Shown here: positions 46,104 to 61,345 of the stretch, piece after piece | Position numbering within the stretch: the first letter of the stretch is position 1 | How the letters are laid out: every line of letters starts with the position of its first letter | Assembly: GCF_004137085.1 (NCBI RefSeq) | Contig: NZ_QYBC01000017.1 | Location: forward strand, 1-64,000 | Length of the DNA stretch: 64,000 nt | Direction of reading: 5' to 3' | Origin: Lichenibacterium ramalinae | Lineage (GTDB): Bacteria > Pseudomonadota > Alphaproteobacteria > Rhizobiales > Beijerinckiaceae | Notes under the pieces: model-generated | The model's input: only the letters and a program-made list of their open reading frames with translations | The model's database searches: none | Told to the model about the DNA's origin: nothing | Position numbers and translations under genes: made by a program

Positions 46104-50240
<4,137 letters not shown>

Positions 50241-50249
50241 CGACGAAAC

Positions 50250-50288
50250 GGCGTCGACCCGAGCTCCGTACGAGCCCGGGTCGACGCC
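50250..50288 (+). terminator. 17-bp hairpin between rpoB and rpoC
   Basis: Arms at 50250-50266 and 50272-50288 pair with one mismatch around a 5-base loop (core ggcgtcgacccg/cgggtcgacgcc). It lies 10 bases after the rpoB stop with no T-run. A complete stop here would block rpoC, so a role in mRNA processing or stability is more likely. Confidence 0.6.
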
Positions 50289-50403
50289 ACCCCGGCGTGC
50301 CGCGCTCCCCGGAAGGAGCCCGGCCCGCCGCCGACGACGATGTGAGACTTTCTCCGAGGGCGTGGCCGCTCCATGCGCGCCTGCCTCGGTTCAGGAGAAG
50401 ACC

Positions 50404-54618
<4,215 letters not shown>

Positions 54619-54642
54619 CGGGACGACCCAGGCGACATGAGG

Positions 54643-54672
54643 AGGGAGGGCGCTTCGGCGCCCTTCTTTTTT
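54643..54672 (+). terminator. Rho-independent terminator after rpoC
   Basis: Stem agggcgc (54647-54653) and gcgccct (54658-54664) with a ttcg tetraloop, followed by tctttttt to 54672. This is the clearest intrinsic terminator in the window and separates rpoBC from the genes downstream. Confidence 0.92.
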
Positions 54673-54825
54673 GCCCGCGCTCCAGAGCTGGCGGGCGTCG
54701 ACGACAGGCTGGACGACGCTGGAGCTGCCGACAGCGATTCACCGCATCCGTGCACGGCGATGGAACCGCCGCTATGAACACGCGATTGTGAACCGTCCAC
54801 CGACGTCAGTCCGTTCCAGGTCTCC

Positions 54826-55269
54826 ATGCCGCTGCCAATGCACATCCAAGCCGACGCGGATGCCGACACGCACGGGCGCGCGGCGGATGCGGAGTTCCGC
54901 GCCATGCTGGCGCCCATCATGGCCGGGGCGCGGGCCCGCGGCGTGGCCGACGGGCTGGAACTGCTCGGGGTCGGCGCCGTCCTCATCGACGCCACCGGTT
55001 GCGTGCTGCATGCGGGCGAGCGAGGCCGGCGCATGATGGCGGGCTGGCTGCGCGTCGTGGAACGGCACCTCGTGGCCGAACGCCCGGGCGACGACCACGC
55101 CATCGCCGAGCTCCTCGGCAGCGCCATCGCGGGCCGGCCGACGCCGGGAGGACTGCGCCTCGGCGGCCTCGGCGGGGAGCCGTCGCTGACGGTGCGTGCC
55201 CTGGTGTTCCCGAGCGACGAGGGTTCGGCGCAACGCCTCCACGCCGTCCTCGTGCTCGACGAGACCTGA
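54826..55269 (+). CDS. Orphan PAS-like protein between rpoC and rpsG
   Basis: Encodes 147 residues. The part GLELLGVGAVLIDATGCVLHAGERGRRMM followed by a helix and then GGLRLGGLGGEPSLTVRALVFP resembles the PAS-like sensory half of LuxR-type regulators. No helix-turn-helix follows before the stop, and none is seen in the next 490 bases, so it may be a truncated regulator or a stand-alone sensor. It starts after the rpoC terminator and before the str-operon promoter. This is an unusual place for any gene. Confidence 0.6.
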   Translation: MPLPMHIQADADADTHGRAADAEFRAMLAPIMAGARARGVADGLELLGVGAVLIDATGCVLHAGERGRRMMAGWLRVVERHLVAERPGDDHAIAELLGSAIAGRPTPGGLRLGGLGGEPSLTVRALVFPSDEGSAQRLHAVLVLDET

Positions 55270-55327
55270 AACGCCCGCGGCAGGTGCATGTCGCACCAGC
55301 TTTCGGCATCGGACCTCACCAAATGCA

Positions 55328-55356
55328 TTGACGCCGTCCGACGTGGCCGTTAAAGA
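55328..55356 (+). promoter_or_regulatory. Sigma70-type promoter for rpsG-fusA-tuf
   Basis: ttgacg (55328-55333), a 17-base spacer and taaaga (55351-55356) make the best -35/-10 pair seen in the window. It would give a leader of about 400 bases before rpsG. Recognised by eye. Confidence 0.6.
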
Positions 55357-55539
55357 AGGCCAACTTTCGGCAGGCCGTAGGCACCTTTGTTTCGGGACGA
55401 CGCGTCCTGGACCCATAAGAGCCTAAACGCTGCCGGCCTCACCTGAGACCAACCTCGACCGCAGCCGCGGTCCCGGTCATCGAAAGAAGCACGAGCGTGA
55501 CGCGCCAGCGTTGCGGTCCTCTGCGTTTGGTGCGCTTGA

Positions 55540-55604
55540 GACCCGCGAGGGTCGAGAGTGCACTTTGTTTTGCACGCGTTTCGGAGGGGCCCCATCGGGG
55601 TCCC
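55540..55604 (+). promoter_or_regulatory. Three consecutive hairpins in the leader before rpsG
   Basis: gaccc-gcga-gggtc (55540-55553), gtgca/tgcac with an 8-base loop (55558-55575), and ggggcccc-atc-ggggtccc (55586-55604, 8 pairs counting one G-T). They lie within the 492-base gap 55270-55761, which otherwise holds the promoter and the rpsL relic. They could be a regulatory leader or part of the inserted DNA. Confidence 0.5.
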
Positions 55605-55690
55605 TGCGGGGCGAACGACGAAGACCTCGACGTGAGGGGCAGGCCGGTGATCAGACCGCGATGGGCGGGCTGGGGGGCAGGCACCACGTC

Positions 55691-55750
55691 CAGGGCGTGA
55701 AGGACCGCACGCCACGCCGGTCGAAGCCCGGCGCCTGGCGTCCGCAGTAA
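55691..55750 (+). pseudogene. rpsL: rpsL (S12) 3'-end relic
   Basis: The 19 codons before a TAA read [19 protein letters not shown]. The end of alphaproteobacterial S12 reads QGVKDRRQRRSKYGAKRP plus one residue; about 14 of 19 match and the stop is aligned. The relic ends 11 bases before rpsG, exactly where rpsL should be, and the rpsG ribosome-binding site (ggaaga) follows it at once. None of the S12 core (KRGVC, TTPKKPNSALRK, GEGHNLQEHS) is present upstream on any frame I could read. Confidence 0.75.
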
Positions 55751-55761
55751 GGAAGAACTCG

Positions 55762-56232
55762 ATGTCGCGTCGTCATAGCGCAGAAAAGCGTGAGATCATC
55801 CCGGACGCCAAGTACGGCGACGTGACCCTCACCAAGTTCATGAACTCGATCATGTACGACGGCAAGAAGTCGACCGCAGAGGCGATCGTCTATGGCGCCT
55901 TCGAGAACATCGAGCAGCGTCTGCGCACCGAGCCGCTGCCCATCTTCATGCAGGCCCTCGACAACGTGGCTCCGGCCATTGAGGTGCGCTCGCGCCGCGT
56001 CGGCGGCGCCACCTACCAGGTGCCGGTCGAGGTTCGCCCCGAGCGCCGCCAAGCCCTCGCCATCCGCTGGCTCATCACGGCCGCCCGCGGCCGCAACGAC
56101 AAGACCATGGTCGACCGTCTGTCGGCCGAACTGATGGACGCCGCCAACAACCGCGGCAATGCCGTCAAGAAGCGCGAAGACACGCACCGGATGGCCGAGG
56201 CCAACCGCGCCTTCTCGCACTACCGCTGGTAA
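55762..56232 (+). CDS. rpsG: 30S ribosomal protein S7
   Basis: Encodes 156 residues: [58 protein letters not shown] and the end [21 protein letters not shown]7 nucleates the 3' domain of 16S rRNA and, with S12, is normally cotranscribed. Here it becomes the first intact gene of the str operon because rpsL is missing. Confidence 0.98.
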
Positions 56233-56265
56233 GCCGGCGGTTCAGCGCCATCCGAGGATCGACCC

Positions 56266-58341
<2,076 letters not shown>

Positions 58342-58381
58342 CCTCCCCAACACGTTGAACGAAGCTTGAGAGGAGCCTGAC

Positions 58382-59572
<1,191 letters not shown>

Positions 59573-59996: not shown

Positions 59997-60716
59997 ATGC
60001 GGTCAGGTGTCATCGCCCAGAAGGTCGGAATGACCCGTGTTTTCACGGAATCGGGCGAACATGTGCCGGTGACGGTGCTCAAACTCGACGGTTGCCAGGT
60101 CGTGGCGCATCGCACGGCCGAGGCTAACGGCTACAGCGCGTTGCAGATCGGTATCGGCAAAGCCAAGGTCAAGAACGTCTCCAAGGCCGAGCGCGAGCGT
60201 TTCGCCATCGCCAAGGTGGAGCCGAAGATGAAGCTCGCCGAGTTCCGGGTCGAGGCGGATCACATGATCCCCGTCGGTGCCGAGTTCCAGGCGGACCATT
60301 TCGTCCCGGGGCAGTTCGTCGACGTCACGGGCACGTCGACCGGCAAGGGCTTCGCCGGCCCCATGAAGCGCTGGAACTTCGGCGGCCTGCGCGCCACCCA
60401 CGGCGTGTCGGTGTCGCACCGCTCGCACGGTTCGACCGGCGGCCGCCAGGACCCGGGCAAGACGTTCAAGAACAAGAAGATGGCCGGCCACATGGGCGTC
60501 GACCGCGTGACCACCTTGAACCTCAAGGTCGTCCGCACCGACGTGGAGCGTGGCCTCATCCTGGTCGAGGGCGCGGTTCCGGGCGTGGTCGGCGGCTACA
60601 TCTTCGTGCGCGACGCCATCAAGAAGGCCCGCCACAAGGATGCGCCGATGCCGGGCAAGTTCCGCCTCGTCACCGCCGATGCCGCCCCGGCCGCCGAAGC
60701 CGCCGTTGAGGGTTGA
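59997..60716 (+). CDS. rplC: 50S ribosomal protein L3
   Basis: Encodes 239 residues: [65 protein letters not shown] and RVTTLNLKV. The Gln in GGRQDPG is the position methylated by PrmB in other bacteria. The C-terminus has an Ala-rich tail. It overlaps or abuts rplD. Confidence 0.98.
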
Positions 60717-60724
60717 GTGAAGCC

Positions 60725-61345
60725 ATGAAGATCGACATCACCTCCCTCGAAGGCCAGGCCGACGGCTCGCTCGAGCTCGCCGACACCATCTTCGGTCTCG
60801 AGCCGCGCCAGGACCTCATCGCCCGGATGATCCGCTACCAGCTCGCCAAGCGGCGCGCCGGCACGCATCAGACCAAGGGCCGGGCCGACATCGCCCGCAC
60901 GGGCAAGAAGCTCTACAAGCAGAAGGGCACGGGTTCGGCCCGCCACGGCTCGGCCCGCGTGCCGCAGTTCCGCGGCGGTGGACGCGCCTTCGGCCCGGTG
61001 ACGCGCTCCCATGCCCACGACCTTCCCAAGAAGGTCCGGGCGCTGGCGCTGCGCCATGCCCTGTCGTCGAAGGCCGCCGACGGCGACCTGATCGTGTGGA
61101 ACGGCGCTTCGGTGTCGGAGCCCAAGACCAAGGTGCTGAAGCAGCGTTTCGAGGCACTCGGGCTCAAGAGCGCGCTCATCATCGACGGCGCCGCCGTCGA
61201 GGAGAACTTCGCCCGCGCGGCCCGCAACATCCCGATGATCGACGTCCTGCCGATCCAGGGCCTCAACGTCTACGACATTCTGCGTCGCAACAAGCTGGTT
61301 CTCACCAAGGCTGCAGTCGACGCGCTGGAGCTGCGATTCAAATGA
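60725..61345 (+). CDS. rplD: 50S ribosomal protein L4
   Basis: Encodes 206 residues from the ATG at 60725; a TTG at 60713 would overlap rplC by 4 bases. It shows [24 protein letters not shown], the tunnel-loop [19 protein letters not shown], and [10 protein letters not shown]4 lines the exit tunnel and in E. coli also represses the S10 operon. Confidence 0.97.

Follow-up and report, generated by a model that had tools for sequence, protein, structure and literature searches.

In the genome of Lichenibacterium ramalinae, a deletion has left nothing of the native gene for ribosomal protein S12 (rpsL) but the 3' end, and an intact S12 gene of what appears to be a streptomycin-resistant type, gained at an unlinked position on contig C62, probably now supplies the protein. 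By our count, rpsL has been replaced in this manner in at least three lineages, and in L. ramalinae the remnant of the native gene is still legible. The window, the stretch of 64,000 nucleotides analysed here, belongs to a draft assembly of 5.8 Mb in 76 contigs with an estimated contamination of 1.56% (G000), and was compared with five congeners, among which G001 and G003 are the two nearest sisters. The replacing gene and its protein, along with their counterparts elsewhere, are designated S12*.

Within the window, rpoC (50362–54618, forward strand; 1418 aa) is collinear in the sisters at 91–93% DNA identity. It is followed on the same strand by a 147-aa open reading frame (54826–55269), the retained native leader of the str operon (55328–55584; 81.6% identity to G001 and 88.4% to G003) and, after an unassigned 105 bp at the deletion junction (55585–55689), the remnant of rpsL (55690–55750). 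Intact rpsG, encoding S7 (55762–56232; PF00177, E 1e-66), is 99% identical to its counterparts in G001 and G003, and fusA (56266–58341; 691 aa) is 97–98% identical to theirs; tuf (58382–59572; 396 aa), named by eye from the sequence, completes the forward-strand series. The nearest relative among the best 80 named S12 loci is Beijerinckia sp. L45, with 87.8% identity in fusA and 92.9% in S7, which probably places the organism within or near the Beijerinckiaceae.

Comparison of this junction among relatives places an intact rpsL directly before rpsG in all five congeners. The match of the window to G001 and G003 runs through the leader to 55584 and resumes at 55690, inside codon 104 of rpsL; compared with the sisters, some 72 bp of the leader and 311 bases from the start of the gene (codons 1–103) are absent. 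The 105 bp found in their place match the sisters' start-of-gene region no better than shuffled sequence does in local alignment (p 0.46 and 0.92). The remnant, comprising the last 19 codons and the stop, is diverged and carries +1 and -1 indels that cancel, and its translation aligns to QGVKDRRQRRSKYGAKRPK-stop. Local alignment of 55690–55750 to the 3' ends of rpsL scores 83 (G001) and 92 (G003), and to rpsL alone 75 and 80, against 34 and 33 for the best of 2000 base shuffles each. Native rpsL, occupying the position of the sisters' intact gene and bearing a disabling lesion, is a pseudogene, and the lesion amounts to a deletion plus a small filler rather than a large replacement. The preliminary description had recognised both the absence of rpsL from the operon save for its last 19 codons and the S12 C-terminus with its stop at 55691–55750, and on these points it was borne out; its claim that some 350 bases had been replaced by a promoter, hairpins and unrelated DNA must be given up, as most of that sequence is native leader and only the 105 bp are unassignable. 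A decayed rpsL start codon suggested by one MAFFT alignment was no better than shuffles and was dropped. Pfam, searched at E ≤ 1, gave no match for the 79-aa open reading frame terminating in the remnant.

From rpoC to the str leader, 656 bases that include the 147-aa reading frame have no DNA match outside the window. By tblastn, the product of this frame has a relative in G002 (40% identity over residues 27–146) and a 37-residue piece in G004, both encoded upstream of rpsL and on its strand; the frame, which has no Pfam family at E ≤ 1, is a resident of the genus and therefore not part of the lesion. The retained leader and junction (55328–55660) fold as RNA better than shuffled sequence (z -3.7). 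A conserved control element in the str leader is possible; within 54600–55800, Rfam gave no match and a promoter and terminator scan gave no sigma-70 site above its threshold.

A PF00164 profile search of the whole genome for an intact S12 gene returned one match, on contig C62 (62527–62898, minus strand), where S12*, the sole S12 of the genome, is encoded by 123 intact codons. By the curated TIGR00981 cut-off of 112.95 bits, this protein is a full-length bacterial uS12 (196.0 bits), as are the S12* proteins of Stappia (203.9) and of G227, a single-contig genome from another family (198.3); the native S12 of G001 and G003 scores 221.2. S12* of L. ramalinae shares 72–73% identity with congeneric S12, and each congener has a single S12, of the ordinary type. 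Contig C62 is colinear with G001 at 85–86% identity over 10.5 kb (48571–59102), in a block that ends 3.4 kb from S12*, and therefore belongs to the genus; a further segment (60368–61292) also matches G001 nearby, inverted. The sequence around S12* itself, at about 62–67 kb, matches none of the candidates scored in the five congeners over a long stretch, and no alignment of the vacant site itself was obtained. As read by eye, S12* is flanked by a CHASE2/cyclase-like gene on its upstream side and a dehydrogenase-like gene on its downstream side, with no mobile gene directly beside it, and no rpsG occurs near it on the contig. It is preceded by a promoter-like TTGACT-N17-TAACGG, also read by eye, and the promoter scan gave no sigma-70 site above its threshold beside the gene. 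Positions 1–22000 of C62, which hold AAA-type and unknown genes, have a G+C content of 0.55–0.67, compared with about 0.70–0.77 in the remainder of the contig, and are probably a genomic island, situated about 40 kb from S12*.

Across the family, 38 of 199 genomes lack an S12 profile match. True loss of rpsL was rejected for the 16 of these that were tested: 15 are also without S7, and in the other a contig ends inside rpsL. The absence of S12 in these 16 genomes is an assembly gap. Three genomes with low-scoring matches in the same scan (G067, G138, G164) are left out of this account.

S12* is distinguished by a signature of four residues, K42R, R85G, V86P and K87N in E. coli numbering. The proteins compared were 114 less three viral, that is 111 distinct sequences, of which five are S12* from three lineages and 106 are ordinary. 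All five S12* proteins bear the signature at all four columns and none of the ordinary proteins does; among the latter, K42 and R85 are found in all 106, V86 in 105 with I86 in one, and K87 in 100 with R87 in six. The columns R42, G85, P86 and N87 are the only ones that set all three kinds of S12* apart from ordinary S12. Beyond these, the S12* proteins share no exclusive residue, so that convergence would also fit the pattern. Substitutions at two of these positions, 42 and 87, cause high-level resistance to streptomycin in several bacteria: K43R and K88R in the alphaproteobacterium Agrobacterium fabrum, like K42R and K87R in E. coli, lead to streptomycin resistance (PMC10521367), and K42R and K87R are given a streptomycin MIC of >1024 (PMC4182516). 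K87N was not found in the streptomycin-resistance literature searched. A change at K42 and/or K87, by which a streptomycin-resistant S12 is recognised in sequence, is present in all five S12* proteins, and S12* would on this ground be an S12 of the streptomycin-resistant type.

Something else, whether another inhibitor of the decoding site, a toxin or a change in decoding, might instead have selected S12* and left streptomycin resistance incidental. The change across the 85–87 loop does exceed the single substitutions at 42 or 87 in the reports as far as these were accessible, and dityromycin, too, targets S12, a producer being self-protected by an altered S12 (PMC6763770). This reading is nonetheless somewhat unlikely, as exactly four columns are unique to S12* and two of them are the main streptomycin sites. 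Moreover, the five dityromycin contacts, R30, V32, R55, H76 and V78 (PMC6763770), are unchanged in S12* of L. ramalinae, and dityromycin is therefore not the agent; the protein thus lacks the changes at V32 and R55 that mark resistance to that drug.

The replacement is not confined to L. ramalinae. In 79 of the best 80 named S12 loci, rpsG lies no more than 444 bases away and residues 85–87 are ordinary; the exception is Stappia indica SN13-18, in which the signature is present and rpsG is not nearby. In S. indica, S12* is the sole S12 found; rpsG is located elsewhere, and the 1.5 kb upstream of it hold no S12. The sole S12 of G227 is likewise S12*, and the interval of about 590 bp that separates rpoC from rpsG in that genome holds no S12. 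Two further members of its genus (G933, G934) each have S12* as their single S12 match, away from rpsG, and in five of five genomes from other genera of the family an ordinary S12 adjoins rpsG. About 300 bases after S12* of G227, a gene read by eye as transposase-like is found (L148, 8303–9370).

The spread of the signature was followed with an exact DNA pattern for G-G-P-N-D-L-P-G-V, by which near variants would be missed. The pattern marks G000 and G227 and no others among 385 genomes from the class, and again this pair among 398 from the phylum; it also occurs in three of 61 genomes of the order of G227, all three being species of its genus. In the family of Stappia it occurs in 14 of 87 genomes, and all 14 genes (L165–L178) encode S12* and lie closely downstream of gyrB; within this family, the status of S12* as sole S12 is known from S. 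indica. A well-conserved promoter-like TTTGACA...CCTATA, also read by eye as TTTGACA...TATAC, precedes these genes. The 14 distinct genes encode six proteins and differ per pair by a mean of 25.8 synonymous and 2.2 replacement codons; S12* is under purifying selection in Stappia. The genomic settings of the three S12* lineages differ, and at least three replacements are therefore counted.

The preliminary description had proposed that rpsL was moved or duplicated and that the copy in the operon then decayed. An intact S12 elsewhere and a remnant in the operon agree with this; the S12 found is, however, unlike the native gene in its overall identity, its genus-marker residues and its signature. 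In a fuller alternative, S12* would descend from the resident rpsL, which after duplication or relocation diverged radically under selection at the streptomycin site, with the signature convergent in three lineages. Relative to rpsL of G003, S12* has 34 replacement and 24 synonymous codons, compared with two and 37 for rpsG on the same comparison and none and 17 for rpsL between G001 and G003. It keeps one of seven genus-marker residues, whereas each left-out congener keeps those seven (7 of 7–9), and its identity to the S12 of Brevundimonas (76.4%) and of Maricaulis (75.6%) exceeds that to the S12 of its own genus. Three lineages would, additionally, have had to reach R85G-V86P-K87N plus K42R independently. 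These observations make descent from the organism's own gene unlikely, even though some points speak for it. Only the four signature residues unite all S12*, and synonymous identity to rpsL over same-residue codons (70.5% for G001 and 72.7% for G003) is near that of rpsG (79.5% and 74.5%), and hence consistent with a recent origin.

Synonymous identity is itself a weak guide in this case. Codon agreement of S12* tracks third-position G+C, at 75.9% for Methylobacterium, 72.7% for G003 and 50.0% for G004, and the value for Methylobacterium renders the measure barely informative. An argument for recent duplication from the 82% DNA identity with G003 over 276 bases was accordingly rejected, as codon agreement neither proves nor excludes it, and a binomial test against 85% synonymous identity (p 0.0004 and 0.002) was left unused because rpsG itself reaches only 74.5–79.5%. 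In a tree with the signature columns removed, the five S12* proteins formed one clade in 0% of bootstraps, with weak placement; the approximately unbiased (AU) test, with a p-AU of 0.33, did not reject the single clade. Placing S12* of L. ramalinae with the S12 of its own genus gave a log-likelihood 1.90 higher than that of the free tree (p-AU 0.52), which favours the native gene slightly and non-significantly. The evidence on origin is thus divided, and the trees do not settle it, 123 residues being too few to decide.

No donor of S12* was found among the best 80 named genomes or among plasmid, phage and viral records. The best identity in 68 plasmid records is 73%, and 18 phage records reach at most 74.7% for a fragment and, over the full length, 68.3%. 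Viral contigs yielded six relatives, the best full-length one at 65% identity, and the signature pattern in none. Two long viral contigs from IMG/VR (L139, L140) encode a complete S12 with an extended C-terminal region and ordinary residues at 42 and 85–87. In two metagenome-assembled genomes labelled Sphingomonadales (L057, L059), S12 falls among Chitinophagaceae in the tree, and these bins are possibly mislabelled or mixed.

That native rpsL was lost in assembly and S12* lies on a contaminant contig, the misassembly reading that the preliminary description had also entertained, is very improbable: the assembly is a draft with some estimated contamination, and C62 around S12* lacks a long match in the congeners, but on either side of the junction the leader and 3' remnant match two sisters, the colinearity of C62 with G001 reaches to within 3.4 kb of the gene, no second S12 exists and the same state recurs in the single contig of G227.

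The replacement of rpsL by a gained S12* can be set out as a series of steps, whose order we infer. A cell would first gain S12*, with K42R, R85G, V86P and K87N, horizontal transfer being the likeliest route. A sensitive S12 allele is dominant to a resistant one, and rpsL counter-selection relies on this. The gained resistant S12 would thus be silent until native rpsL is lost; because resistance could show only after that loss, drug exposure would favour the deletion. Native rpsL would then be lost down to its 3' end, S12* on C62 would be expressed from its own promoter-like sequence, and the kept str leader presumably still drives rpsG, fusA and tuf. In a broader and more tentative version, S12* may be a drug-resistant-type family that enters several alphaproteobacterial lineages and displaces rpsL; silent until the native gene dies, it would make loss of the str copy obligate, and the window may capture a recent swap.

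Several known systems resemble S12* in part. Chromosomal rpsL streptomycin alleles (K42R, K87R and others) are likewise target-level changes, and S12* shares with them R at 42 and a residue other than K at 87. Those alleles are, however, point mutations of the native gene, whereas S12* is a 72–73% identical, unlinked gene with a four-residue signature whose native counterpart is lost. In AM-2504, a natural S12 variant protects the ribosome, which its authors regard as the first case of a mutated ribosomal protein conferring self-resistance (PMC6763770). That S12 is altered at 32 and 55 rather than at 42 and 85–87, and the accessible part of the report describes no replacement of a native gene by an unlinked one, as seen here. 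Orthologous displacement of ribosomal protein genes (PMC3151239) similarly involves an essential single-copy gene displaced by a distant ortholog; S12* differs in its readable native remnant, its unlinked position and its recurrent drug-site signature, with transfer being likely rather than observed. The berninamycin cluster is flanked by duplicates of core genes, rpsL, rpsG, fusA and tuf among them, with a suspected role in resistance (PMC9290621). These are extra copies, in contrast to S12*, which is the sole S12 and has no such cluster seen beside it. The literature searched yielded no description of S12 being replaced repeatedly by a protein with this signature; as it includes few subscription papers, this counts as weak evidence of absence.

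In the usual view, rpsL is a marker present in single copy and inherited vertically, and S12-based streptomycin resistance arises by point mutation of the resident gene. If the reading given here is true, recurrent replacement by an unlinked signature S12 would add target replacement as a third route, whole genera would be intrinsically streptomycin-resistant, and the rpsL-rpsG-fusA-tuf arrangement would have been broken without loss of the operon.
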